Assembly: GCF_001457655.1 (NCBI RefSeq)
Contig: NZ_LN831035.1
Span: 1,426,001-1,490,000 of the forward strand
Source of the DNA: Haemophilus influenzae
GTDB lineage: Bacteria > Pseudomonadota > Gammaproteobacteria > Enterobacterales > Pasteurellaceae
Length of the DNA stretch: 64,000 nucleotides
Reading direction: 5' to 3'
This document shows, piece by piece, positions 1-54,128 of this stretch (within the stretch, counting starts at the first letter, position 1; each line of letters begins with the position of its first letter). The position numbers and the translations under genes were made by a program. Below the pieces are notes generated by a model. That model did not search any database and was not told the origin of the DNA. It worked only from the letters and a program-made list of their open reading frames with translations.

Positions 1-2363
1 GTGTACTGCTTTCAGAGCTTTACGATGACGTAACCATTGAAGATGCGCCTTATTTCTCCGCACTTTACGGACCTGCACGTCATGCTATTGTTGTGCGTGA
101 TCTCAATGCAGTGCGTGAACAACTTGCGCAATTAGAAGATTGCCCTGATGATTTATATTTAATTGAAGGCGATCCTACCGCATTTGACGACAGCGTATTA
201 TCCGCACAAGAACTTGAGCTAGGTGTTGTCGTGCAAGTTTCAGATCGTGAATTACGCTATTCAAGATTCCCTGAAATCCCGTTATTTGGACGCGCAGCAC
301 GTGAAAAACGTTTAGAAGAATTACAAATTGAACGTGATGAAGTGGCAGAACAACATGCCCAAATTGCATTTGATGTACAAAAATGCCAACGTTTACACGA
401 ACATTTCAGCCAATTTGTTGGGTTGCATTTGTCACTTGCGTTCCAGCCAAATCCAGAAGCGTTAATGTCTGAAATTAATCGCGAACGCAATGAAATTGAT
501 CGTGAATTAAATCAATTCAATAACGGCGAACAACAATTACGCATTCAATTAGATAATGCAAAAGAAAAACTACAGTTACTCAACAAGTTAATTCCACAGC
601 TCAATGTATTGACTGATGAAGATTTAATTGATCGTATTGAAGAATGTCGCGAGCAATTAGATATTGCAGAGCAAGATGAATATTTTATTCGTCAGTATGG
701 CGTAACGTTGTCACAATTAGAGCCGATTGCCAATAGTTTACAAAGTGATCCAGAAAATTACGAAGGCTTAAAAAATGAATTAACTCAAGCGATTGAGCGT
801 CAAAAACAAGTTCAACAACGTGTATTTGCGTTAGCTGATGTTGTACAACGTAAACCGCATTTTGGTTATGAAGATGCAGGGCAGGCTGAAACTTCTGAAC
901 TTAACGAAAAACTTCGCCAACGTTTAGAACAAATGCAGGCTCAGCGAGATATGCAACGTGAGCAAGTTCGCCAAAAACAAAGCCAATTTGCTGAATATAA
1001 CCGCATATTAATTCAGTTACAAAGTTCTTACGATAGTAAATATCAGCTTTTAAATGAATTGATTGGTGAGATTAGCGATCTTGGCGTGAGAGCTGATGAT
1101 GGTGCTGAAGAACGCGCGCGTATCCGTCGTGATGAATTACATCAACAACTTTCAACGAGCCGTCAGCGTCGGTCTTATGTAGAAAAACAACTGACATTAA
1201 TTGAAAGCGAAGCGGACAACTTAAATCGTCTAATCCGCAAAACTGAACGCGATTATAAGACTCAACGTGAATTAGTGGTGGCAACGAAAGTGAGTTGGTG
1301 TGTAGTTTTACGTCTATCACGTAATTCTGATATGGAAAAACGCCTCAATCGTCGAGAGCTCGCTTATTTATCTGCAGATGAATTACGTTCAATGTCGGAT
1401 AAAGCCTTAGGGGCATTGCGTACAGCGGTGGCAGATAATGAATATCTACGTGATAGTCTAAGAGTGTCTGAAGATAGTCGTAAACCTGAAAATAAAGTGC
1501 GGTTCTTTATTGCGGTGTATCAGCATCTACGTGAACGTATTCGTCAAGACATCATTAAAACCGATGATCCAATTGATGCCATTGAACAAATGGAAATTGA
1601 GCTTTCTCGTTTAACGGCTGAATTAACTGGCCGTGAGAAAAAATTGGCTATCAGTTCTGAAAGTGTTGCAAATATTATGCGTAAAACGATTCAGCGTGAA
1701 CAAAATCGTATTCGTATGCTCAATCAAGGTTTGCAAAACATCTCGTTTGGTCAAGTAAAATCTGTTCGTTTGGTAGTGAATATTCGTGATACCCATGCCA
1801 TGTTGTTGGACGCACTTTCTGGTCAGCAAGATGAATATCAAGACTTATTTAACGACAACTGCATCACCTTTTCTGAAGCTATGGCGAAGCTCTATCAACG
1901 TATCAATCCACATATTGATATGGGACAACGCACAGCACAAACAATCGGCGAAGAATTGTTAGATTACCGTAATTATCTTGAACTTGAAGTGGAAGTATTC
2001 CGTGGCGCTGATGGTTGGTTACGCGCTGAAAGTGGCGCTCTTTCTACTGGTGAAGCTATCGGTACAGGTATGTCAATTCTCTTAATGGTTGTTCAAAGCT
2101 GGGAAGAAGAAAGTCGTCGAATTCGAGGCAAAGATATTGTGCCTTGTCGCTTGTTGTTCTTAGATGAAGCAGCGCGTTTAGACGGTAAATCTATTTCTAC
2201 CTTATTCGAACTTTGCGAACGTTTGGATATGCAGTTGCTTATTGCTGCGCCAGAAAACATTAGCCCGGAAAAAGGAACAACCTATAAACTCGTGCGTAAA
2301 ATCGCAGGCAACCAAGAGCATGTACACGTTGTTGGTTTACGAGGATTCGGTGCGACAGAATAA
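1..2363 (+). CDS. mukB: Chromosome partition protein MukB, C-terminal half (5' end outside window)
   Basis: SMC-like condensin ATPase that organises the chromosome with MukE and MukF. The reading frame is open from base 3, upstream of the first in-window start-like GTG at 93, so the gene enters from the left. About 786 residues are present, roughly the last half of a protein that is near 1,500 residues in this family. Long Gln/Glu/Arg-rich coiled-coil stretches are followed by the C-terminal ATPase head: an ABC-type signature region ([11 protein letters not shown]) and a Walker B segment ([11 protein letters not shown]). No frameshift is seen. It ends 13 bases before a paired uptake-signal hairpin. 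Identification is firm. Confidence 0.97.
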
Positions 2364-2375
2364 AAAATAGAAGGG

Positions 2376-2412
2376 AAGTGCGGTTAAAATTTTAAGATTT
2401 TTGACCGCACTT
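2376..2412 (+). terminator. Inverted uptake-signal pair, probable mukB terminator
   Basis: AAGTGCGGT at 2376 and ACCGCACTT ending at 2412 form a 9-bp stem around an A/T-rich loop 13 bases after the mukB stop. Inverted uptake signals downstream of genes commonly act as terminators in Haemophilus. Confidence 0.75.
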
Positions 2413-2432
2413 AAGCCTTTAAGGAAGGAATA

Positions 2433-3341
2433 ATGAAAATCTTTACATCAAAAAAAGGACAATTATCACAGCTGAAGCAGCAAAAATTTAAGCTGGAAAA
2501 GGATATTCAGCGTTTATTTGAAGAAAATCTTACCTTATTAAGTGGCTATATTTTTATTCGCTCAGAATTTTCTATTAAAAATTCGCGTATTGATACCTTA
2601 GCTTTTGATCCTGAAACTCAAGCCTTTGTCATTATTGAATATAAAAGACAACAAAATTCTAGTGTGGTTGATCAAGGGATTTCTTATCTTAATTTGATGC
2701 TTGAATATAAAGCTGATTTTATTGTGGAATATAATGAAAAGCAAAAAGCCCCACTTAAAAGAAATGATGTGGATTGGTCACAATCTAAGGTGATTTTTGT
2801 TTCACCTACTTTTAATGATTTCCAAATTCAAGCCACAAATTTTAAAGATTTACCTATTGAATTATGGGAAGTTAATCGCTTTGATAATGATATTATTACG
2901 CTCAATATTATTAATAAATCAAAATCAGCACCGAATATTAAAGCTGTTTCTATTGAAAAAAATGAAGAATTTTCTACATTAAAAGAAATAAAAGTTTATC
3001 AAGAATCTGATCACTTAAGTGATAAATCAGATTTTATTCAAGAACTATACGAAGATTTTAAACAAGGCATTTTAAATTTAGATCCTAATATCGAAATTAA
3101 TACTAGAAAACTTTACATTGCATTCAAAAAAGATCGAAATATTGCAGATATTCGTATCCAACAAAAGAATTTAAAAATTTGGATTAATCTTCCTTATGGA
3201 GAGTTAGACGATCCTAAAAATTTAGCAAAAAATGTATCTAATACTGGTCACTGGGGGAATGGAGATTATGAAATCACCATTGAAAGCACCCAATATCTTG
3301 AATACATTATGAGTTTAATTAAACAAGCTATTAAGGATTAA
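2433..3341 (+). CDS. Predicted PD-(D/E)XK nuclease-fold protein (DUF5655-type C-terminus)
   Basis: 302 residues, no signal peptide or membrane segment. Residues 50-100 show a NucS-like nuclease core: RIDTLAFD followed by FVIIEYKR, which fits the D...(D/E)xK metal-binding pattern. The C-terminal third (KLYIAFKKD, then a segment ending in an E-Y-I-M-type helix) resembles the DUF5655 domain found in this family. It starts 20 bases after the uptake-signal hairpin with AAGGAAGG before the ATG and is followed 3 bases later by the transporter gene, so the two are probably cotranscribed. A role in DNA processing is inference; no experimental function is known to me. Confidence 0.7.
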   Translation: MKIFTSKKGQLSQLKQQKFKLEKDIQRLFEENLTLLSGYIFIRSEFSIKNSRIDTLAFDPETQAFVIIEYKRQQNSSVVDQGISYLNLMLEYKADFIVEYNEKQKAPLKRNDVDWSQSKVIFVSPTFNDFQIQATNFKDLPIELWEVNRFDNDIITLNIINKSKSAPNIKAVSIEKNEEFSTLKEIKVYQESDHLSDKSDFIQELYEDFKQGILNLDPNIEINTRKLYIAFKKDRNIADIRIQQKNLKIWINLPYGELDDPKNLAKNVSNTGHWGNGDYEITIESTQYLEYIMSLIKQAIKD

Positions 3342-3344
3342 TAA

Positions 3345-4220
3345 ATGCACAATCTTATTTTTGCCATTCTTTGCAGCGTAGCAGTTTCAGTTTTACTGAA
3401 AATTGCCCGTAAAAAAAATATCATTATTGAACAAGCTATCGCATTCAACTACATTACAGCCATCACTTTCAGTTATTTCTTACTTAAACCTGATTTTAAA
3501 GGCTTAGAGTTTACTGATTACATTGCACAAAGCGAAAATTCACCCATTTTTTTAGCACTAGGTTTATTGCTACCTAGCGTATTTATTATTATGTCAAAAG
3601 CAGTGGAGTTTGCTGGAATTGTACGTTCAGATGCAGCGCAACGTCTTTCGTTATTTCTTCCCATTTTAGCAGCGTTTTTAATTTTTCATGAAACACTAAG
3701 CCAATCTAAAATCATTGGCGTTGTATTAGCCTTTATTGGTTTATTTTGTTTATTAACTAAGCCAACTCAAGGGCAAAGTGCGGTCAATTTTAAAGGTGTT
3801 TTAGGATTAATCGGCGTCTGGTTTGGTTACGGCATCATTGATATTTTATTCAAACAAGTAGCGAAAAGCGGTGGTGCATTTCCTGCAACATTGTTTATTT
3901 CTTTCTCGCTTGCAGCTTGCGTTATGTTTATCTATTTATTCTTAAAACGTGCGCAATGGACATCATCAAGTGTAATTGGCGGCATCGTTTTAGGTGTATT
4001 GAATTTCTTTAATATTTTATTCTATATAAAAGCACATCAAAGTTTTGCTGGAAATCCGACGCTTGTTTTCGCGGGAATGAATATCGGGGTAATTTGCCTA
4101 GGTACGATAACTGGCGCATTAGTTTTTAAAGAAAAAATCAGTAAGCTAAATTGGCTAGGTATTATTTTTAGTTTATCGGCTATTTTCTGCCTATATTATT
4201 TAGATAAACTTATCGCGTAA
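3345..4220 (+). CDS. EamA/DMT-superfamily inner-membrane transporter
   Basis: 291 residues with about ten hydrophobic segments arranged as two similar halves, the hallmark of drug/metabolite transporter (EamA) permeases. Charged loops follow most segments and no signal peptide is cleaved. The substrate cannot be read from the sequence. It lies between a predicted nuclease gene (3-base gap) and sbcB (12-base gap), all on the plus strand, so a three-gene operon is likely. An uptake signal lies inside the gene near 3777. Confidence 0.75.
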   Translation: MHNLIFAILCSVAVSVLLKIARKKNIIIEQAIAFNYITAITFSYFLLKPDFKGLEFTDYIAQSENSPIFLALGLLLPSVFIIMSKAVEFAGIVRSDAAQRLSLFLPILAAFLIFHETLSQSKIIGVVLAFIGLFCLLTKPTQGQSAVNFKGVLGLIGVWFGYGIIDILFKQVAKSGGAFPATLFISFSLAACVMFIYLFLKRAQWTSSSVIGGIVLGVLNFFNILFYIKAHQSFAGNPTLVFAGMNIGVICLGTITGALVFKEKISKLNWLGIIFSLSAIFCLYYLDKLIA

Positions 4221-4232
4221 AAGAGAGTAGTC

Positions 4233-5654
4233 ATGGCAAAAGATTTCAGCTTTTTTATTTACGATTATGAAAGTTTTGGTGTAAATCCAGCAACAGATCG
4301 CCCTGCGCAATTTGCGGGTATTCGTACAGATGCTGATTTTAATATCATTGGTAAACCAATAATGTTTTATTGTAAACAAACCAACGATTATTTACCGGCT
4401 CCTGAAGCCGTAATGGTCACAGGAATTACGCCTCAAGAATGTAATGAAAAGGGGCTTTCAGAGCCTGAATTCGCCGCAAATATCTTAGCAGAATTTTCCC
4501 AACCCAATACTTGTGTCATGGGTTATAACAATATTCGCTATGATGATGAAATGACGCGTTATACGTTTTATCGTAATTTTATTGATCCTTATGAATACAG
4601 CTGGAAAAATGGGAATTCACGCTGGGATTTGTTAGATTTAGTGCGAGCCTGTTATGCCTTGCGTCCAGAAGGAATTAATTGGGCTTATGACGATGATGGA
4701 ATGCCAAGTTTCCGCTTAGAAAAACTCACTAAAGCAAATGGTATTGAGCATGAAAATGCTCACGATGCCATGGCGGATGTATATGCAACTATTGCTATGG
4801 CGAAATTAATTAAAGAAAAACAGCCTAAATTATTCCAATATTTCTTTGAAAATCGCGGTAAAAAAGAAATCGAAAAATTAGTTGATACAGGCGCAATGAC
4901 ACCTTTAGTGCATGTTTCTGGAATGCTAGGGAATTATCGTGGAAATTGCACTTGGGTTGCACCTTTAGCTTGGCATCCGACAAATCAAAATGCACTCATT
5001 GTTTGTGATTTAACTGGCGATATCGATAATTTATTAGCCAAAAGTGCGGATGAATTACGGACAGATTTATATACCAAAAAATCTAAATTAGAAGAAAGAG
5101 GAGTTTCATCTGTTCCGTTAAAGCTTGTGCATATCAATAAATGTCCTATTTTAGCACCAGCTAAAACTTTGTTACCAGAAACAGCAAATCGATTGGGTAT
5201 TGATCGACAATTATGCTTGGATAATCTTGCAAAATTACGAGCATCTTTTGATATTCGTGAAAAAGTGGCGGATATTTTTAATGAAGAACGTCAATTTGCA
5301 TCGAATGATAATGTAGAAACTGAGTTATACAATGGCTTTTTTAGCAATGCTGATAAAAATAATATGGCTATTTTACGTAGTTTACCTGCAGAAAAATTAT
5401 CTGAACATGGTTTAGCTTTTGAAGATAAACGTATCCTTGAATTATTATTCCATTATCGCGCTCGTCATTTTTATAAAACCCTCACACGCGCTGAACAAAT
5501 TAAATGGAAAAAATACCGACAGAATAAACTTGAAAAAAGTGCGGTAGAGTTTGAATCAAGTTTACAACGTTTAGCTGAGGAACATTCAGATAATTCTGAA
5601 AAACTATCTTTGCTACAACAAGTATATGAATATGGTATAAAATTACTAGGTTAG
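4233..5654 (+). CDS. sbcB: Exodeoxyribonuclease I
   Basis: Single-strand-specific 3'-5' exonuclease of recombination and mismatch repair. 473 residues, matching the family's usual length of about 475. The N-terminal DEDDh nuclease domain opens with YDYESFG (catalytic D11 and E13); a second block reads NNIRYDDEMTR, and HDAMADVYAT contains the catalytic His and Asp. The SH3-like and helical C-terminal domains follow. Last gene of the plus-strand group; a strong hairpin terminator follows within 25 bases. Confidence 0.96.
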   Translation: MAKDFSFFIYDYESFGVNPATDRPAQFAGIRTDADFNIIGKPIMFYCKQTNDYLPAPEAVMVTGITPQECNEKGLSEPEFAANILAEFSQPNTCVMGYNNIRYDDEMTRYTFYRNFIDPYEYSWKNGNSRWDLLDLVRACYALRPEGINWAYDDDGMPSFRLEKLTKANGIEHENAHDAMADVYATIAMAKLIKEKQPKLFQYFFENRGKKEIEKLVDTGAMTPLVHVSGMLGNYRGNCTWVAPLAWHPTNQNALIVCDLTGDIDNLLAKSADELRTDLYTKKSKLEERGVSSVPLKLVHINKCPILAPAKTLLPETANRLGIDRQLCLDNLAKLRASFDIREKVADIFNEERQFASNDNVETELYNGFFSNADKNNMAILRSLPAEKLSEHGLAFEDKRILELLFHYRARHFYKTLTRAEQIKWKKYRQNKLEKSAVEFESSLQRLAEEHSDNSEKLSLLQQVYEYGIKLLG

Positions 5655-5677
5655 TCGATACGTTGTCACATTTTGTC

Positions 5678-5713
5678 AAAAAGCACGTTTTAATAAAAAC
5701 GTGCTTTTTTTTG
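5678..5713 (+). terminator. Rho-independent terminator after sbcB
   Basis: Stem of 14 bp (AAAAAGCACGTTTT with its complement), 4-base loop, then a T-run. It ends sbcB transcription. Confidence 0.9.
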
Positions 5714-6016
5714 TTGTTTTTCAGGGAAGAAAATATCCAAGAAATTCTCCAGATTTCACTTTACATTTTCTTTACATTTAAATTCATCCGTTCAATAACT
5801 CTATAAAATGACTCGTTACAACGTGTTATCTAGCCTTATTTTGTCTTGTTTTGCTAGTGCCTGTGACTTGTGTATAACTCTGTGATTTATTTAGTCCGTA
5901 GTTTTTGCTAACCCGATAACTAATTTCGCATAATGTATATTATGTTAAATTGTAAAAATGCAAAGTAACTTTAATTATAGGTTATAAAGAGATTATTTCT
6001 CCTCTCTTAATTAGTT

Positions 6017-6171
6017 ATACTTAATCAAATAAGATGAACGAGTAAATTAATTTAGAGCCATACTATGATGTTTATTTACAGTGTTCGATTCATGGGTGTG
6101 AAAGTACTGCAGCATTTAAAGATTTATGCTTGATTGATAAAGATTTAGGTGATTTAGCAACTGCTACATAA
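6017..6171 (+). pseudogene. Remnant of a third ferritin gene
   Basis: The stretch 5714-6311 holds no intact gene, but this part aligns with ftnA/ftnB. From 6011 the sequence TTAGTTATACTTAATCAAAT repeats the ftnA start region with ATG changed to ATA. After a small deletion, K-M-N-E-stop-I-N-L-E-P-Y can be read (ftn[12 protein letters not shown]), then D-V-Y-L-Q, then C-S-I-H-G, then T-A-A-F. It jumps directly to the ferritin C-terminus: LCLIDKDLGDLATAT and stop at 6169-6171 (FtnB ends [15 protein letters not shown]). The central helices with E50, H53, E94 and E130 are absent and a stop interrupts the frame, so it cannot be functional. The alignment was made by eye but is long and colinear. Confidence 0.85.
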
Positions 6172-6311
6172 TCTAAATAATATAAGTTTAGATGGGTGAA
6201 AAACTACCAAGCTGTGTTTTTTATGTATCTAAGCTCTCCACTAGCCCGCTATTTTCGATTTTCTGATGTGTTATTTACTACCGTGTCAGCTAATACTTGC
6301 AACGCGTATTA

Positions 6312-7589
6312 TCATTGAATTTCTTTATTATTTTTTGATATGACAAAGCGTTTAGGTATGATAAACGAAAAACTACTCCCCTTCGTTTCAGTACTTTCAA
6401 TATTTAAATGAGAATGATATTGTAATAAAGTATGCTTCACAATAGCTAGTCCTAAACCACTTCCACCAGTTAAATGGCTACGAGATTCATCAACTCTATA
6501 AAAACGTTCTGTTAAATGTGGAATATGCTGTGGTGATATGCCAACACCATTATCTATCACGTTAAATTTAATACCCTGTTCACAAGTTTCCCATTGAATT
6601 TGAATATGACACTGTTTACCAGAATGCTTAATAGCATTATAAATTAAATTTGAAACGGCACTTCTTAGTTGAGATTCATTTCCAAAAATAATGATATTAG
6701 GCTGAATAATAAATTCAATATGATGATTATAAGTATTTAATATATCTGTATCTTTTCTTAAAGAATTTATCATGGCTGACATATCAAATTTACGAAAATC
6801 CTTATCTGAAGTTGTTTCTATTTTTGCTAAAAAATTAAATTGTTGTAATAGATGTTCCATTCGTTGGCTTTGCTCTTGCATTGCAAAAATAGCCTTTTTT
6901 TGTAGAGGGTTCTGAATATTATTATCTGCAAGAATTTCTAAGTAACCTTGTAATACGGTTAATGGAGTACGTAGCTCGTGATTAATATTACTCAAGAATT
7001 TTTGGCGTGAATTAAGTAAATGAATCATATCTGTAATATCTCGAGCGATAACTAAAATCATATGAGAATTATAAGCGTGCGACTGCACCTCAATATAACG
7101 TTGATTATAAGTTAATAGTACTAACGGTCGTCTTTTTTTTTGACTGAAAAAATAATGTTTAAATTGTTCATAAAAAATAACATCAAAAATATTTTTCTGG
7201 ACTTTTTTATTCCAACAAAAATCAAACATCTGTTGCGCAATTGAATTACACCAAGAAATATTACCATTATGCTGACAGATAATAATTGCATCTGGTAAAT
7301 ACTTAATATTTTTATTTATTTGAGATAACAAACGTAAACTTGCACATTTTTCTTTGTAAATTTGATGACGATGGTAGGCTTCAGTTTGAGAGAATGTTCC
7401 TAATTGTAATAAAGAGAATTTATTATCTTGCTTTAAATTGAGATATTTGAGTAAACGATATTCATTAATATGATGCCAAGCTAAAATTAATAAAAGTATT
7501 ATTGCAAACCAAAGAATAAAATCAGAAGTAAATAAGGAAATAATGATTGCCAAATTTATTTCAACAATAAAATTCAATATTTTTTTCAT
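6312..7589 (-). CDS. phoR: Phosphate-regulon sensor histidine kinase PhoR
   Basis: Membrane sensor kinase that phosphorylates PhoB when phosphate is low. 425 residues. N-terminal hydrophobic segment (about residues 5-45), a PAS-like region (VIDN-type sensing around residues 100-185), then the dimerisation/phosphoacceptor box NHELRTPL, N-box NAIKHS, G1 box DNGVGIS and G2 box [10 protein letters not shown]. The ATG overlaps the phoB stop by 4 bases, indicating translational coupling at the end of the pst-pho operon. Confidence 0.95.
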
Positions 7590-8281
7590 TGTTTATCTCG
7601 TAAATAACTAGAAAATCGATAACCAGATCCTCGAACTGTTTGGATATAATGTTCACATTGAAAAGGAGCTAAATTACGGCGTAAACGGCGAATATAGCTA
7701 TCAACAGTGCGATATTCAACTTCTAGATCATTATGCCAAATACGATTTAACAATTGTTCTCTAGAATAAACTTTTTCAGGGTGCCTCATAAAAAAATGTA
7801 ACAATTTAAATTCTGTACTACTTAAATTAATTTCCTGCTGTTGGAAAAACACTCTCTGAGCATTTTCATCAATGGAAAGTTCATCGATTTGTATAAATTG
7901 ACTTTGTTGTTCATAAATTCTCCTCCATACTGCCTCAATGCGAGCTAATAAAATTTGAGGTGAAAAGGGTTTAGTGATGTAGTCATCAGCCCCTGCATTT
8001 AAACAGGCAATACAATCTTCTTCTGTACTTTTAGCTGTAAGCATAATAATGGGAATCGCAGCATAGCTTTCTTGCTTTTTAATATACTGTATAAATTGTA
8101 TACCTGAACGACCAGGTAGCATCCAATCCAATAATATTAGTTTAGGATTTTCTTTTATCTTGTTTATCGCTGTTTTGAAATCGCTCGCTTCAATCACATC
8201 ATAGTATTTTTGAGATAAAAACAGTGCGATCATTTCACGGATTGCACATTCATCTTCAACTATCAGAATTTTTCTCGTCAT
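7586..8281 (-). CDS. phoB: Phosphate-regulon response regulator PhoB
   Basis: OmpR-family transcription factor that binds PHO boxes. 231 residues: receiver domain with acidic pocket D10/E11 and phosphoacceptor D52 (in LLDWMLPG), conserved Thr and Lys in MLTAKS, then a winged-helix DNA-binding domain with the [11 protein letters not shown] recognition region and a [10 protein letters not shown] helix. It lies 96 bases after pstB; that gap holds a weak stem (8318-8324 with 8333-8339) that could modulate readthrough. Couples to phoR. Confidence 0.95.
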
Positions 8282-8377
8282 AATACTCCTTCATTTGATT
8301 TATGGCATAAAAGTGAAGTGAGAAATAATACATTCTCACCAAACTTTTACTTTTTAATAAGAGTGAGCTCAAAATAA

Positions 8378-9145
8378 CTACCCCATTTTACCGCGAATAT
8401 AATCTTCTGTACGTTGTATCTTGGGTCTATCAAAAATTTGTTGTGTTTGACCAAATTCAACTAATTCACCCAAATACATGAATGCCGTATAGTCGGAGCA
8501 ACGTGTAGCTTGTTGCATATTATGAGTTACTATAACCACAGTATAATCTTGTTTTAACTCCGTAATGAGTTCTTCAATTTTCATAGTCGAAATAGGATCT
8601 AATGCCGAACAAGGTTCATCTAACAACAACACACTAGGTTTAATAGCAATCCCTCGAGCAATGCACAAGCGTTGCTGTTGTCCGCCAGATAAACTATCTC
8701 CGCTTTTATGTAATTTATCTTTCACTTCATTCCAAAGAGCGGCCTTAGTCAATGCCCATTCTACTCGTTCATTCATCTTTTCTTTTGATAATTTTTCAAA
8801 CAAACGAACACCGAATGCAATATTATCATAAATCGACATTGGAAATGGCGTTGGTTTTTGGAAAACCATACCAACCTTAGCACGAATCAGAGAAATATCC
8901 ATCTTTGTTGTGAGTAAATTTTCACCGTCTAAATTAATTTCACCAGTAGCTTTTTGATTTGGATATAGTTCAAACATCCGATTAAAACTCCGCAATAAAG
9001 TAGATTTACCGCAACCTGAAGGACCAATAAAGGCGGTCACTTTATTCTTAGCGATACGTAAATTAATGTTTTTTAATGCATGAAAATCCTCATAGTAGAA
9101 ATTTAGATTTTGCACAGCTATTTTGGTTTCTTGTAGACTAATCAT
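8378..9145 (-). CDS. pstB: Phosphate ABC transporter ATP-binding protein PstB
   Basis: ATPase of the high-affinity phosphate importer. 255 residues with Walker [11 protein letters not shown]-loop region, ABC signature LSGGQQQR, Walker B LLLDEP and switch His in VTHNM. Starts 9 bases after pstA in the order pstS-C-A-B. PstSCAB also signals phosphate status to PhoR, which is encoded downstream. Confidence 0.97.
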
Positions 9146-9154
9146 ATTGCCTCA

Positions 9155-10003
9155 TTATTTTTTATGTTGAAAGAAGAGTCGAGTGAAAATGTTTAAGCAA
9201 AGCACAAATAATGTTATTAGAGCTGCACCTGCCCAAGCTAGATTATTCCAATCTGTAAAAGGACTTGCTGCATATTGATAAATAACTACAGGTAAATTTG
9301 CGATAGGTTCATTCATATTCCAAGATAGAAATTGATTAGACAGAGCGGTAAATAATAGCGGTGCAGTTTCTCCTGAAATTCGGGCAACTGCTAATAGCAC
9401 GCCAGTTAAAATCCCTGATTTAGCTGCTCGATAACAAATCATCATAATAACTTGCCATTGAGAGCAACCAAGAGCTGCCGCTGCTTCACGTAAATTATTT
9501 GGTACAAGTAATAACATATTGTCCGTAGTGCGTACCACGATAGGAATAAGCAATAAAGCTAATGCGAATGCTCCAGCCCACCCTGAAAAATGCTCGATTT
9601 TTGATACATATAAGCTGTAAACAAACAAACCAATAATAATAGAAGGGGCAGAAAGAAGAATATCATTAAGAAAACGGGTAATTTGTGCGAAACGGCTATA
9701 ACGACCATATTCTGCCAAATACGTTCCTGCCAATACCCCTATAGGCGTGCCTATCAATGTACCCGCACCGACAATAAAAAACGAACCAATCAGTGCATTT
9801 AACAATCCCCCTTTTTCATTAGGGGCAGGGGTAGATTGTGTGAATAAATCAATTGATAAAGCTGGAATGCCTTTGGTAATTAGAGTGAATAATATCCAAC
9901 ACAACCAAAATAAGCCGATAATGACTGAAATATAGGAAAGCCCTAACATTAATTTATTGTGTGTTTTACGCCAATAAAAACGCAAGTTTTGATTAGTTTT
10001 CAT
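9155..10003 (-). CDS. pstA: Phosphate ABC transporter permease PstA
   Basis: Inner-membrane permease, 282 residues, six hydrophobic segments, and the EAA-type cytoplasmic loop (REAAAALGCSQWQ) that docks with PstB. It begins one base after the pstC stop, so translation is coupled. Length agrees with the family. Confidence 0.95.
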   Translation of the reverse strand: MKTNQNLRFYWRKTHNKLMLGLSYISVIIGLFWLCWILFTLITKGIPALSIDLFTQSTPAPNEKGGLLNALIGSFFIVGAGTLIGTPIGVLAGTYLAEYGRYSRFAQITRFLNDILLSAPSIIIGLFVYSLYVSKIEHFSGWAGAFALALLLIPIVVRTTDNMLLLVPNNLREAAAALGCSQWQVIMMICYRAAKSGILTGVLLAVARISGETAPLLFTALSNQFLSWNMNEPIANLPVVIYQYAASPFTDWNNLAWAGAALITLFVLCLNIFTRLFFQHKK

Positions 10004-39785: not shown

Positions 39786-40061
39786 CTTGATTTCCTTTTG
39801 ATGGAAGCCCCCGATAAATCGGGCGTTCGACAGCTCAAAACTGGTCAAGAATCCAGCGGACTTATTCCCTTTCGGTATTGTATTAGTCGCACTGTCGAAC
39901 ATTGATTGATAATTTTCTTTTTATGCGTTGTAAGTCTTAATGGCAATAAAACAAACAAGGTAAATTTTACGCATAAAAAAATCACGCTGACGGGGTGAGT
40001 TACCGTTCTTGATAAGGCTTTTGAGACCTTGAATAAAATAGTAGAGGAAAATTTTGAGAAT

Positions 40062-46304: not shown

Positions 46305-46317
46305 TTTAACCTCTTTA

Positions 46318-46401
46318 TTCTATTTAAAGTAGTATAATTCTACTATTAAAAATAGAATTGAATCAACCATTTTAATTTTGTATCTTCTACCTTTAGTAGA
46401 A
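46318..46401. promoter_or_regulatory. Operator region between cro-like and cI genes
   Basis: Three related inverted repeats: TTCTATTTAAAGTAG (46318-46332), TTCTACTATTAAAAATAGAA (46338-46357) and TTCTACCTTTAGTAGAA (46385-46401). Shared half-site TTCTAC/GTAGAA. Arrangement as in lambda OR with divergent promoters. Confidence 0.8.
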
Positions 46402-46414
46402 TAAAGGAGTGTCT

Positions 46415-47113
46415 ATGACAGATTTAGCAAGCCGACTTAATGAATTAATGGCTAAACAAGGCAAAAATATTGTGGATTTACAAAAAGCTGTTGGCGTAAC
46501 CTATGAAATGGCTAGACGTTACACTTTAGGCACTGCAACCCCGAGAGATAATAAAATTGAAGCTATAGCGAAGTACTTTGGAGTTACCCCTGCTCATTTG
46601 AAATACGGAACAGTCGATTCTTTAGAAAATCAAGTAACTTCTAATGTGAAAGACGTTGGCTCATTCGACTTATGGGATCGCAATACTCCACTAAATAGCG
46701 ATGAATACGCCGTTCCGTTTTATCAAGACATTCGCCTTGCTGCTGGAAACGGATTTGCTGATGACATAGCGGACTATAACAACTTCAAATTGCGTTTTTC
46801 CAAATCAACACTACGTAAACAAGGCGTACAGTACGAAAATGCGGTATGTGTGATTGCTGACGGAAACTCGATGGAGCCTGTTATTCCGGATGGAACAACA
46901 GTTGGCATTGATCTTGGTAATAAAACAATCCGAGATGGGAAAATATACGCAATAAATCACGGTGGGCTACTACGCATAAAGCTACTTTACAATATGCCAA
47001 ACGAACAAGTGAAAATCCGCAGTTATAACACCGAAGAACACCCTGATGAAATAGCAGAACTACAAGATATTTCTGTGTTAGGGAAAGTGTTTTGGTATTC
47101 AGTATTATTATAG
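46415..47113 (+). CDS. CI-like repressor with S24 autoprotease domain
   Basis: 232 residues from ATG 46415 (AAAGGA upstream; the GTG at 46409 is less likely). Helix-turn-helix in residues 1-60, then LexA/CI-type peptidase: cleavage site in LAAGNG, catalytic Ser in GNSMEPVI and Lys in LLRIKLLY. It should keep the prophage silent and be cleaved after DNA damage. Three genes in the same direction follow, starting 51 bases downstream. Confidence 0.9.
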   Translation: MTDLASRLNELMAKQGKNIVDLQKAVGVTYEMARRYTLGTATPRDNKIEAIAKYFGVTPAHLKYGTVDSLENQVTSNVKDVGSFDLWDRNTPLNSDEYAVPFYQDIRLAAGNGFADDIADYNNFKLRFSKSTLRKQGVQYENAVCVIADGNSMEPVIPDGTTVGIDLGNKTIRDGKIYAINHGGLLRIKLLYNMPNEQVKIRSYNTEEHPDEIAELQDISVLGKVFWYSVLL

Positions 47114-49045: not shown

Positions 49046-49174
49046 TAAAACTCACCGAAACACCTCAAAAATCGACCGAACTTTTCACCTCCCTCACCTA
49101 ATTTGCCTAAAAAACAGGCAATCAAACAACTTTTCTCAAAATTCTTTTCTTTTTAAATCAACGGATTACAAATT

Positions 49175-49239
49175 AAAGTAGAGAATAAATCTACTTTTGT
49201 GCAAATTTTAGTTGCAATTAAATCTACTTTAAGTAGAAT
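49175..49239 (+). promoter_or_regulatory. Distal operator/promoter (OL-like)
   Basis: AAAGTAGA-N7-TCTACTTT (49175-49197) and TCTACTTTAAGTAGA (49223-49237) carry the same half-site as the cI operators. They overlap a plus-strand promoter: TTGCAA (49212-49217), 16 bases, TAGAAT (49234-49239). Repressor would silence transcription towards 49.5-52 kb. Confidence 0.75.
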
Positions 49240-49271
49240 TAGCCACATCAAAACGAGATACACAATCTCAA

Positions 49272-49284
49272 TGCTCTTTAAAAA
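49272..49284 (+). promoter_or_regulatory. boxA-like antitermination site
   Basis: TGCTCTTTAAAAA, matching the NusB/NusE boxA sequence, 33 bases after the OL-like -10. A nut-type site is plausible; no N gene was recognised. Confidence 0.5.
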
Positions 49285-49298
49285 TTTGTGATGAAAAA

Positions 49299-49508: not shown

Positions 49509-49730
49509 ATGCAAGAAGAAATGAAACGCTATGCAATTTCTTATCACTTCGACGGCAAAAGGTGGGCGACAGATGTTTACGCCCATTCATTCGAAGAAGC
49601 GGAAGAAAAGCTAAAAGCAATGTCCCAAGGTACTGTTGACGGCGAGATTCACCTTTCAGTTTACATTCCTGAAAATCCGCTATCGAAAGTATCAAGGTTG
49701 ATTACAAGAATAGCTAAAAAGTTTATGTAA
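49509..49730 (+). CDS. Small phage protein, unknown
   Basis: 73 residues, or 69 from ATG 49521. YAISYHFDGKRWATDVYAHSFEEAEEKLKAM suggests a strand-strand-helix unit; the C-terminus is basic (SRLITRIAKKFM). First coding gene after the OL-like promoter. Confidence 0.6.
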   Translation: MQEEMKRYAISYHFDGKRWATDVYAHSFEEAEEKLKAMSQGTVDGEIHLSVYIPENPLSKVSRLITRIAKKFM

Positions 49731-49757
49731 GTCAGTGACTTTCATCACAAATTTTAA

Positions 49758-50033
49758 ACAATTTGGTTAAAGAAACTCACTCGGCGGAAGCGCAGACGGA
49801 AGCCCAACGGTGCTAAGCGGTCGTTAGATTGAAAGCCCTAACCTACTTAGTTAAGAGTGAGTTTTAAAGTCTGCCCATGCAAAGCCAATGAAAAACGGTG
49901 CAGTTGCCGAAAGTGGAGCTCAAGCAGGCGAATATCCCAATGTGGATATTTCAAAACACATTTGCTAGTACAGAGACACAACGGCATGTGAAACCGTTGC
50001 GAATGATAGATGAAGTGTGTTTTGAAATGGCAG
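49758..50033 (+). ncRNA. Structured RNA, copy A of a two-copy family
   Basis: Shares conserved blocks with 50526-50862: ACAATTTGG, then GCGGTCGTTAGATTGAAAGC...CCTAACCTACTTAG, then AAAAACGGTGCAGTTGCCGA and AAGTGG. Stems: AAACTCAC (49783-49790) with GTGAGTTT (49857-49864) enclosing CTAAG/CTTAG and GTTAG/CTAAC; CTGC/GCAG (about 49871/49924); ATTTCAAAACAC (49948-) with GTGTTTTGAAAT (-50028). In copy B the stems differ in sequence but still pair. Strand is taken from the promoter upstream; no coding frame spans it. Confidence 0.7.
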
Positions 50034-50057
50034 ACATAAAACAAACGAGGTTCAAAT

Positions 50058-50216
50058 ATGGAAGAAAAACAAGAAAAAAGCCTATCTGATAAAGATAAAA
50101 ATCTAATCAAACAGGCTGTATTAGAAAGTGCTGATAAAAATACAAATTTAACACCAAGTGAATTAGCTGAGAGTGTATGTTCGGCAGTGATGTTTATTGA
50201 TTCTTATGGGCGTTAA
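50058..50216 (+). CDS. Small acidic phage protein, unknown
   Basis: 52 residues, MEEKQEKSLSDKDKN...; ACGAGG 8 bases upstream. Helical, hydrophilic. It comes directly after structured RNA copy A and its last 23 bases overlap the convergent gene. Confidence 0.5.
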   Translation: MEEKQEKSLSDKDKNLIKQAVLESADKNTNLTPSELAESVCSAVMFIDSYGR

Positions 50217-50397
50217 AAATATCTGAACTGGAAATGCTATCATCAATAGATTCTTGCAATCTTGATGATAATGTTGAAACAAATCTGGCAATATCTTCGG
50301 CCACATACTCATTAACTTCTCGCAAATATTGAGAGTTTGTTTTTAAAATATCTCTTGCCATAACAAGAGCTATTTTATCTGCTGCTATTTTTTTCAT
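50194..50397 (-). CDS. Small helical protein, unknown, convergent
   Basis: 67 residues: MKKIAADKIALVMARDIL, YVAEDIARFVSTLSSRLQESIDD. AAGGA lies 6-10 bases before the ATG. The direct repeat TGTGTTGTGGT (50415 and 50447) upstream could be an operator. No family recognised. Confidence 0.5.
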   Translation of the reverse strand: MKKIAADKIALVMARDILKTNSQYLREVNEYVAEDIARFVSTLSSRLQESIDDSISSSDIFNAHKNQ

Positions 50398-50525
50398 GAT
50401 GCTTCCTTATTTTTTGTGTTGTGGTTGAGGGAAATTATATTCCTTATGTGTTGTGGTGACAATAAGGACTTGAGCCTTACAAGTATAAAGAAAGGCACTC
50501 ATCATTAACCTGTTTTGAGTTTTAG

Positions 50526-50862
50526 ACAATTTGGCTACAGAATCACAGTGCATAACGGTGCTAGGCGGTCGTTAGATTGAAAGCCCTAACCTACTTAGCA
50601 ACACTGTGTTTTGAATATCTGTCCAAGTGGAAGCCTGTGAAAAACGGTGCAGTTGCCGAAAGTGGAAACAGACAGGTAAACCGAACCACACCTTTTGGTC
50701 TGTTTTCAAGTTGGTTAAAAATGGGAAAGCGACAGACAGCAAACGTTAGCTAAAGGCGTGACATACCGGAAAGACGGTAAATTTCAAAGCGTACTCAGCA
50801 GAGAGTGAATCCAAGCGCACAGAAACACAAATGCAAGACAGAGTGCGCTTTGAAATGGCAGA
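50526..50862 (+). ncRNA. Structured RNA, copy B of a two-copy family
   Basis: Same conserved blocks as copy A. Outer stem CACAGTG (50544-50550) with CACTGTG (50602-50608) replaces AAACTCAC/GTGAGTTT; CTAGG/CTTAG keeps pairing with a G-T; CTGTC (50619) with GACAG (50671); ATTTCAAAGCG (50781-) with CGCTTTGAAAT (-50856). About 100 extra bases are inserted in the middle (50676-50780). A terminator at 50918-50943 follows. Confidence 0.7.
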
Positions 50863-50917: not shown

Positions 50918-50943
50918 CCCTCTGTAAAACGAGGGCTTTTTTA
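50918..50943 (+). terminator. Terminator after structured RNA copy B
   Basis: CCCTC-N8-GAGGG then CTTTTTT. Confidence 0.7.
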
Positions 50944-52466: not shown

Positions 52467-52469
52467 CCC

Positions 52470-52550
52470 AATGATGAACTGTTTAGGAGGATCGAAAGAT
52501 CCGCCGTTTTGCTCTAAGTACGGTACTGCGAATCCTATTCAGTTCATCAC
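52470..52550 (+). ncRNA. c4-type antisense RNA upstream of antirepressor
   Basis: Closing stem GATGAACTG (52473-52481) / CAGTTCATC (52540-52548), inner hairpin GGATC-GAAA-GATCC. Two internal segments are complementary to the antB leader: CTCTAAGT (52512-52519) to ACTTAGAG (52590-52597) and ACTGCGAAT (52525-52533) to ATTCGCAGT (52556-52564). Two separate short antisense regions in front of ant is the arrangement of the c4 RNA of phages P1/P7. Confidence 0.75.
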
Positions 52551-52606
52551 CAACTATTCGCAGTGGTTCGTGATGAGTTTTAAAACTTAACTTAGAGTAC
52601 ATCACA

Positions 52607-52858
52607 ATGACACACTTAAACTTAATTCCTGTTTTTAATGGCTTAATCCAAAATCAACCCGTTCAACTTTGCAACGCTCGTGAACTTCACGCATTCGTAG
52701 AAAGCAAACAGCAATACACTGATTGGATCAAAAACCGCATCAACGAATATGGCTTCATCCAAAATGAAGACTACCTCGTCATCACCGAACGCACCAACGG
52801 ACGCCCACGCAAGGAATATCACATTACCCTCGATATGGGCAAAGAACTCAGAAATTAA
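52607..52858 (+). CDS. AntA/AntB-family antirepressor, truncated
   Basis: 83 residues: [44 protein letters not shown] is the AntA/AntB N-terminal domain. Full-length antirepressors continue with a C-terminal domain; here the frame ends RN-stop. The 70 bases after the stop show no clear continuation beyond HHLKR-like remnants. Likely controlled by the c4-type RNA before it. Confidence 0.82.
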
Positions 52859-53162: not shown

Positions 53163-53552
53163 ATGGAACCAATTAAACTTTCGCAGAAAGCCGAAGAAGA
53201 AATTGTGAATGCGGCAAAAATGGCGGCGTTATCTAATTTGACCGAGAAAAGCCAAAATTTAATTACGCTTGAGGATATCGCAATATATTTTGGGCGACAC
53301 TATCAAACCGTTGCCAAGATTATTTCAAAACTGCCTAATTTCCCAAAACCCGTTACAGTCGATCAACAAAATTCTCGCCCACGCTATATCGCAGGCGAAG
53401 TTGTTCGTTGGGGCGGATCAATGCTAAACATATTAGCTAATCGAGTAATTCCGCCACCTCCGCCATATCAGGGGCATAATAGACATTTTGTAAAATCGAA
53501 ATATCTTTATGCCCAGATATTTTGGCTAATGTCATCACATCTACTTTTTTAG
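53163..53552 (+). CDS. Excisionase-like DNA-binding protein
   Basis: 129 residues in frame. Residues 1-85 hold an AlpA/Xis-type winged helix: LITLEDIAIYFGRHYQTVAKIISKLPNFPKP, then RYIAGEVVRW. The remaining about 40 residues run antisense through the integrase remnant and look like readthrough after loss of the native stop. Position next to the integrase supports an excisionase. Confidence 0.65.
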   Translation: MEPIKLSQKAEEEIVNAAKMAALSNLTEKSQNLITLEDIAIYFGRHYQTVAKIISKLPNFPKPVTVDQQNSRPRYIAGEVVRWGGSMLNILANRVIPPPPPYQGHNRHFVKSKYLYAQIFWLMSSHLLF

Positions 53553-53870
53553 ATAGTCTAGTCAATGCCTCACGCCGTGTGTCGTGAAAATGCAAATATT
53601 CTCGCTCGGCAAGTTTTTTGAGTTTTCGGAATGTTGCATCAAGCACACTAGACTTAATATCAAAACACAATTCCTCATCCCCTATCCGACTAACATCAGA
53701 TATATATTTATCCGTAACTGGATGGCGTAAAAAGCGATTCAGCCGATTAAATTCGTGCTTTTCTCCACGCTTTGTTGGCGTAATTTCGTTCAAATAGAAA
53801 ATAATGTATCAGGTTGCAATCCTTGCGCTTGCAATTCTATTTTCTTTTCCTCTTCCGCACCCCATTTCAT
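53437..53870 (-). pseudogene. Tyrosine-type prophage integrase, broken
   Basis: C-terminal catalytic part is intact: HFHDTRREALTRLSKK (H and R), ISGHKD, and the nucleophile Tyr in NVYYAPDM, stop at 53437. Upstream, NEITPTKRGEKHEFNRLNRFLRHP is separated from MKWGAEEEKKIELQAQG (from 53870) by a frameshift near 53795. Between YISDVSRI and GDEELCFDI the central region of about 100 residues is missing. Cannot be active. Confidence 0.82.
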
Positions 53871-54008
53871 GTTGCATTGGCGTAATTTTGGCGTAATCGA
53901 TGCATAAAAATACTTAAAAAATGGCAATATTTGAGGTTGGGATTGGTGATGAATTTATAGCGGATATGAACGTAACTTATTGATTTTACTGGTTGAAATG
54001 CATAAAAG

Positions 54009-54038
54009 AAAAACCCCTGACCAACGATCAAGGGTTTG
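54009..54038 (-). terminator. Terminator after tRNA-Leu
   Basis: Minus strand AACCCTTGATC-GTTG-GTCAGGGGTT then TTTCTTTT; one mismatch. Confidence 0.75.
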
Positions 54039-54042
54039 TATG

Positions 54043-54128
54043 TGGTGCCTAGGGTCGGACTCGAACCGACACGTTTATTCAACGGCGGATTTTGAATCCG
54101 CTGCGTCTACCAATTTCGCCACCCAGGC
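54043..54128 (-). tRNA. tRNA-Leu (anticodon CAA)
   Basis: 86 bases with acceptor stem GCCTGGG/CCTAGGC, D-loop AATTGGTAGAC, anticodon stem GCGGA/TCCGC around TTCAAAA, class II variable arm, GGTTCGAGTCC T-loop and encoded CCA. Integration site of the prophage. Confidence 0.96.

Follow-up and report, generated by a model that had tools for sequence, protein, structure and literature searches.

A conserved, structured, noncoding element behind an rRNA-type boxA leader in a lambda-like prophage of Haemophilus influenzae and in other Pasteurellaceae phages

A conserved, structured, noncoding element, present in two copies, lies behind an rRNA-type leader in a lambda-like prophage of Haemophilus influenzae, and homologous units occupy the same slot in other Pasteurellaceae phages. 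The prophage is contained in a window of 64,000 nucleotides (NCBI RefSeq assembly GCF_001457655.1, contig NZ_LN831035.1, positions 1,426,001 to 1,490,000), the whole stretch that was analysed. Covariation and the strand-specific context suggest that the element acts as an RNA. It is a phage element without an Rfam family, resembling the large phage RNAs GOLLD and ROOL as well as the rrn leader, and matching neither RNA. The original prediction, made from the letters of the window, had described two segments sharing conserved blocks, and both copies and their blocks are indeed found there (Table 1). The element is larger than was then described, including a promoter-like site and the rRNA-type leader; the module architecture, the tRNA slot of the relatives, the hairpin before boxA and the spread of module C had all been missed.

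Both copies sit to the right of the phage repressor, in a slot after cI that is seen in named phages as well as in the window. The minus strand of the prophage carries Cro-like and CII-like genes together with anti-repressor and O-like genes. At 53437-54128, a 118-aa integrase-like ORF adjoins a tRNA-Leu (CAA) gene, so that this end of the prophage looks decayed. A C4 antisense RNA (Rfam RF01695, 63.1 bits) is found at 52467-52554 on the plus strand, upstream of a short anti-repressor-like gene (52607-52858), and a match to the sRNA-Xcc1 family (RF02221, 65.3 bits), also present in the related phages L066, L012 and L081, at 39817-39900 on the minus strand. Between the two copies lies an antisense 67-aa ORF (50194-50462, minus strand) with its own promoter-like site (TTGTCA-17-TATAAT, 11/12), perhaps an accessory gene active in the lysogen.

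Table 1. Features of the element and its surroundings, in window coordinates
Feature	Position	Strand	Details
Repressor	46409-47113	+	Peptidase_S24 and HTH domains
Operator-like direct and inverted repeats	49169..49241		at leftward promoter
Promoter-like site	49212..49239	+	TTGCAA-16-TAGAAT, 9/12
boxB-like hairpin	49255..49269	+	GAGAT-ACACA-ATCTC, just 5' of boxA
boxA	49273..49287	+	GCTCTTTAAAAATTT, host rRNA-type
16-bp perfect inverted repeat, 5' arm	49281..49296	+	
73-aa ORF in cassette	49509..49730	+	phrog_2920 (unknown function)
16-bp perfect inverted repeat, 3' arm	49740..49755	+	just 5' of copy 1
RNA copy 1	49758..50033	+	modules A, B, hairpin, stem D
Copy 1 module A	49772..49865	+	P1, P1b, core hairpin 49823-49842
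Copy 1 P1	49772-49782 / 49855-49865	+	GAAACTCACTC/GAGTGAGTTTT
Copy 1 P1b	49812-49817 / 49846-49851	+	
Copy 1 module B	49871..49927	+	P2 (49871-49874/49924-49927) encloses conserved 49896-49916
Copy 1 terminal stem D	49949..50027	+	energy fold; arms read from sequence
52-aa ORF 3' of copy 1	50058..50216	+	phrog_14969 (unknown function)
RNA copy 2	50526..50862	+	modules A, B, C, stem D
Copy 2 module A	50540..50612	+	
Copy 2 P1	50540-50550 / 50602-50612	+	GAATCACAGTG/CACTGTGTTTT, one mismatch
Copy 2 conserved part of module B	50645..50665	+	
Copy 2 module C	50698..50784	+	P3, C1, C2
Copy 2 P3	50698-50703 / 50732-50737	+	
Copy 2 C1	50743-50747 / 50755-50759	+	
Copy 2 C2	50764-50768 / 50775-50779	+	
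Copy 2 terminal stem D	50782..50855	+	energy fold; arms read from sequence
Terminator-like hairpin and T run	50918..50942	+	3' of RNA region
Integrase fragment (118-aa integrase-like ORF)	53437-53793		

The two copies are not equivalent: module C (50730-50784) is present in copy 2 only. Besides P1, they differ in P2 (CTGC/GCAG in copy 1 versus CTGTC/GACAG in copy 2) and in the 3' stem (TTTCAAAACAC/GTGTTTTGAAA versus TTTCAAAGCGTACTC/GAGTGCGCTTTGAAA). Module C consists of the P3 stem (GUCUGU/ACAGAC or GCCUGU/ACAGGC), the C1 hairpin (ACGNN-AGCUAAA-NNCGU in Pasteurellaceae), the linker GACA and the C2 hairpin, the loop of which is of the GAGAGA type (GAAAGA in copy 2). The module C model, R1, matches copy 2 at 50730-50784 with 56.1 bits, a match that is not independent, as the window row is among the 65 rows from which R1 was built. 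The region contains 5 terminator-like sites against a shuffle mean of 1.5. A second locus in the same genome (L002, C1:654985-655401), presumably in another prophage, has one RNA unit behind the same leader, with 94% identity over 418 bases. The relatives of this genome, together with an Rfam sxy element, indicate the family Pasteurellaceae.

All three of the stems that had been predicted to differ between copies and still pair are present, and P1 covaries. Its 13 distinct strand versions, among them GAAACTCACTC/GAGTGAGTTTT, AAAACATGGCG/CGCCATGTTTT and GAAGCTTGCTT/AAGCAAGTTTT, have 94.4% of cells paired, compared to 75.0±4.4% in shuffles (0/2000 as good), with both sides changed at 7/11 positions; these strands were located by hand-chosen prefixes picked after reading the sequences, and a blind stem search put P1 elsewhere in 4/17 rows (L004, L007, L051, L059), each with at least one P1 mismatch and each kept in the count. 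P1b, in 6 versions, is 100% paired versus 94.0% in shuffles (152/5000). For the core pairs of alignment A6, pairing is 98.4% versus 92.9% (0/500); leaving out L239, it is 98.7% versus 93.1%, with 5 pairs changed on both sides (0/500), and leaving out L238 as well, 98.7% versus 95.3% (0/500), with 3 two-sided pairs (9/500). P2 taken alone among close relatives is not significant (3 strand versions, 1329/2000), nor are P3 (1320/2000) and C1 (941/2000) singly, because few strand versions exist. The core hairpin PA is represented by three stems only (808/5000). By eye, L238 carries a different, complementary P2 pair, CCCACTG/CAGTGGG.

Energy folding of the copies is only moderately better than that of shuffles (z -2.44 for copy 1, -2.05 for copy 2), and 0/24 distinct 240-nt units have an open frame in any of the six frames. 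From the covariation and the absence of open frames it follows that the element is conserved, structured and noncoding. The selected fold that had been predicted is thereby borne out in the collected homologues, with pairing above shuffles in P1, P1b and the A/B core, and in module C as described below.

The leader preceding the copies has the boxA word and the upstream hairpin of an rrn-type leader. The boxA word is TGCTCTTTAAAAA in the prophage versus TGCTCTTTAACAA in six host leaders, and the prophage 13-mer is the host rRNA leader 13-mer with one base changed, which substantiates the boxA-like site of the original prediction. In the 1.89 Mb genome, the word family TGCTCTTTAANAA is found at 8 places (reversed-word control, 2), namely six rRNA-type leaders, 4 of which were confirmed by Rfam to lie 5' of SSU rRNA, the window prophage and the second locus; a longer 15-mer is found only at the two phage-type loci (control, 0). 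In the host leaders, the order is hairpin, then boxA, as described for rrn in passages of PMC10250234. The predicted repressor control of the promoter is suggested by the operator-like repeats, which resemble repeats in the cI/cro gap (46313-46358), but with 12 matches in the window versus 8.8 expected, the ten-base half-site word shows no enrichment. The promoter-like sites of the region (3 versus a shuffle mean of 5.3) are not above chance. The boxA starts 485 bases 5' of copy 1, with a small ORF cassette in between. This 73-aa ORF cassette is flanked by the 16-bp inverted repeat, and its looping out could join boxA and copy 1.

The same arrangement recurs in relatives. A sense-strand boxA lies at most 1200 nt upstream in 23/26 distinct loci, at distances of 48 to 1030 nt, and is missed in 3/26, whereas antisense and downstream boxA sites were found in 0/26 each; for this count, 3 of the 29 distinct loci were excluded for their short upstream sequence, and L072 and L088 were left out. 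A stem scoring at least 5 was found within five bases upstream of boxA in 31/42 distinct stretches, which are related and not independent, compared to 2.1 expected and at most 8 in 200 sets of single-base shuffles. The stems vary among relatives while pairing is kept (GAGAT/ATCTC, GAGCTA/TAGCTC, AGGTT/AACCT, AAACC/GGTTT and GCAGT/ACTGC). The terminator count is weak, with 15/28 in sense versus 9/28 in antisense.

Scanning viral contigs for exact words yielded 35 stretches in one scan and 41 in another, and in a BLAST search 14 of 140 family genomes matched some part of copy 2. The A-B model, R2, matched 10/140 family genomes at E<=0.01, one of which (G030) is a chance match in a protein gene, and 2/274 genomes of the class sample, these being the H. 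influenzae genome and one unlike sequence. Searched against 19 loci of other leader types, R2 gave nothing credible (best 18.1 bits, E 0.11). R1 matched 43/140 family genomes at E<=0.01, 11 of them with a match above 30 bits; in the phylum sample it matched 43/398 genomes at E<=0.001, only 4 of which, including the H. influenzae genome, exceeded 25 bits, and matches at or below that score are taken as largely due to chance. The candidates rejected as chance matches include L239 (30.1 bits), in a protein gene that is cyclophilin-like by eye; L088, where the module C word falls within a long coding region, smc-like by eye; and G567/L244 (27.8 bits), AT-rich and unlike the others.

Read by eye, the units are built from exchangeable modules. 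Elsewhere in the family, phages have 5' parts of at least six other types on our own reading, while module C, the slot 3' of it and a D-like stem are often recognisable despite these differing 5' parts. In the L057/L068 group, which has another A type, different stems carry a conserved hairpin loop, AUURAAAGCC. L238 in G078 (66 bits) is the most distant A-B homologue; it retains the helices despite different letters and has a minimal layout of hairpin, boxA, one RNA and terminator, followed, by eye, by the gene that also comes next in the window. The leader of Pasteurella phage Pmp13 (L067, 5230-5620) contains another module that is probably structured, GTCGGYATAGGGA...AGTCGCACAAAGAAGC, in two tandem copies with differing hairpins, and similar sequence is present in L048 and L149. 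The 3' arms of stem D in L048, L052, L055, L057 and L012 hold AAGTGCGGT, which we take to be the Haemophilus-type DNA uptake word, or a close variant.

In some relatives the slot holds tRNAs. Genes for tRNAs or tRNA-like molecules occur in 7/27 distinct leaders, several of which are close relatives: ARAGORN calls a sense tRNA in 4/27 (antisense, 0/27) and the T-loop word is present in 7/27, all seven also matching the Rfam tRNA model, one through its twin L052. The remaining 20/27, the window included, have no tRNA sign by the ARAGORN/T-loop rule. These genes lie between module C and the terminal stem or further downstream. In Pmp13, about 1.6 kb of the slot is without annotated protein genes and ends in three tRNA genes; in Aggregatibacter phage S1249, a tRNA-like gene (Rfam, 44.8 bits) sits between a module C-like sequence and D. 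Enlarged anticodon loops were found, with four-letter anticodons in L053 and Pmp13, and by eye in S1249 and L052. The tRNA-like genes at L053 1770-1856, L055 ~1900-2000 and L058 ~1395-1500 (minus strand), which occupy the same slot and were not called by ARAGORN, show when read by eye a long variable arm and an anticodon of the UAU type.

Module C extends beyond the family. A relaxed module C word retrieved 75 viral stretches, eight of them Pasteurellaceae-like; judged by GC content and neighbours, the others are unlike these phages. In 65 aligned sequences (alignment A3, the window plus 64 of 68 candidates, with L062, L069, L132 and L159 excluded, L159 as a possible chance match), 93.3% of cells are paired versus 85.8% in shuffles (0/500), with 38 two-sided cells versus 11.5, the invariant columns being partly set by the search word. 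The sense frame is open over 201 bases across the module in 15/51 loci versus 74% at random places in the same loci, and the antisense frame in 26/51 versus 62%; a crude ORF caller placed an ORF across the motif in 40/71 rows, in 32 of them antisense. As sense frames are open less often than at random, most, though not all, module C sequences lie outside sense coding. After removal of near-duplicates and the eight Pasteurellaceae loci, a tRNA starts at most 65 nt 3' of module C in 6/53 distinct loci versus 0.25 expected (antisense, 0). The module also lies 3' of a major head protein gene for 4/10 upstream proteins, hand-picked for the test, a position that a tRNA- or rRNA-like role leaves unexplained. 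In L072, a metagenomic phage with 31 tRNA genes (array 1792-9439), module C comes, in the stretch 7750-8149, directly before tRNA-Tyr, and in L105, L110 and L120 it lies between near-identical tRNA-like sequences, with a tRNA-Thr a few bases downstream.

The original prediction knew of no named family, and this still stands for Rfam 15 (4227 families): at the gathering threshold, the whole window gave sRNA-Xcc1, C4 and tRNA matches only, all outside the element, and at E up to 5 four matches fell below the threshold, none of which covered the conserved modules with a credible score. Membership in a known Rfam family was rejected, as no credible match was found in the window or the relatives scanned; searches of 12 of the 75 module C stretches (L072 and 11 more) gave no family for module C. 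The element is not named among the literature matches listed. GOLLD and ROOL are likewise large and structured, encoded by phages and prophages and often located near tRNAs; in GOLLD, as described in passages of PMC12286853, the 5' part varies, the 3' part is conserved and the linker sometimes holds tRNAs. Unlike those RNAs, the phage units here are 270-350 nt and lie behind an rRNA-type boxA leader, and neither Rfam model matched in the window or the relatives scanned. With the rrn leader (boxB, boxA, boxC; Nus complex) the element shares the hairpin-then-boxA order, a structured untranslated RNA, tRNAs in the transcript of some relatives and a terminator-like hairpin after the RNA; it differs in being phage-encoded, with an RNA unrelated to rRNA by Rfam and with Nus loading as a prediction. 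Phage tRNAs with altered anticodon loops are the subject of PMC10264068, and enlarged loops are common to some of the tRNA-like genes here, but the system described there consists of tRNAs alone, whereas here the tRNAs sit in a conserved RNA framework and the slot in the window is empty.

What would such an element do? We favor, with moderate confidence, its being a repressor-controlled stable-RNA operon of the prophage, the RNA of which would fold, like rRNA, under the host Nus complex. Upon removal of the repressor, the leftward early promoter-like site within the operator-like repeats would fire, producing a transcript whose leader carries the rRNA-type signal, hairpin and then boxA. The host Nus complex (NusB, S10/NusE, NusA, NusG, SuhB) would load at boxA and help the untranslated RNA to reach completion and to fold while emerging, as for rRNA, and the product would be one or more folded RNA units of exchangeable modules, released and stable. 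Induction, Nus loading, processing and stability are steps that we infer. According to passages of PMC5725501, Nus factors at rRNA mainly promote folding instead of guarding against Rho, and rRNA is reported to be Rho-resistant without Nus factors, so protection from Rho would be an unsafe inference for the element. The same passages state that an rrn-type boxA also precedes ordinary mRNAs (suhB and a ParE-like toxin), where it is repressing, and that the boxA survey left noncoding RNAs unconsidered. In PMC10250234, deletion of the E. coli rrn boxB had little effect and that of boxA a two- to three-fold effect, with no clear effect on growth.

The main rival is a cis-acting RNA antiterminator like HK022 put or lambda nut, by which RNA polymerase would read through a terminator into the early operon. 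The RNA does sit after an early promoter-like site and boxA, a terminator-like hairpin separates it from the next gene in the window and in L238, and none of the window ORFs scanned was recognisable as an N-like protein. As with put, a lambda-like phage has a structured RNA in its early leftward leader, but put is given as ~70 nt with two stem-loops in passages of PMC9378689, and the element is far larger and modular. Similarity to put was rejected: in 16 kb of HK022, a slice in which its early leaders presumably lie, neither R1 nor R2 found a match (best 10.3 bits, E 0.43). Nor does antitermination require leaders that carry tRNAs and repeated units and reach ~1.6 kb, as in Pmp13. An antiterminator thus fits the position and the terminator but not the size, modules and tRNAs, and we consider it unlikely. 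It is less likely still that each unit is a 5' untranslated regulator of the small ORF that follows it, with stem D beside the ribosome-binding site: copy 1 does precede a ribosome-binding-like site and a small ORF (phrog_14969), as do many of its close homologues, whose ORFs by eye often belong to a single recurring type, but after copy 2, L037 and L238 comes a terminator-like hairpin and no ORF, and the ORFs vary and can be replaced by tRNAs.

Those tRNAs, and the position of module C directly before tRNAs in other phages, could instead point to a degenerate tRNA cassette, in which the folds are processing signals or spacers for tRNAs absent from the prophage. Against this, many members that show no tRNA sign keep modules A and B almost unchanged in sequence, and in the prophage each of these is present twice, so we find it just as improbable as 5' regulation. 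A DNA-level element, such as a recombination hotspot between cassettes, would agree with units adjoining cassettes and with module C 3' of head-protein genes, but the fixed orientation with boxA and leader hairpin and the long stems with compensatory change and conserved loops make it very improbable.

If the element is a stable-RNA operon, the mature RNA might during lytic growth affect translation or tRNA metabolism in trans, for example as a tRNA-like decoy or carrier against tRNA-cutting defences, although this is a tentative suggestion. Slightly less tentatively, Pasteurellaceae temperate phages may possibly carry an imitation rRNA operon, in which the host antitermination and folding machinery makes modular RNAs that hold or replace tRNAs; module C would be part of an RNA motif that spans phages infecting unrelated bacteria, lying there ahead of tRNAs and behind structural genes, and might be a ribozyme or serve in processing. 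The catalogue of large structured RNAs from phages is short; the element adds a set without an Rfam entry, one that offers a promoter-like site, a host machine in the Nus factors and a recurring slot, along with a short, widespread motif in module C. If the leader works as it does in rRNA, these phages would be using the transcription complex that makes ribosomes to make an RNA of their own.
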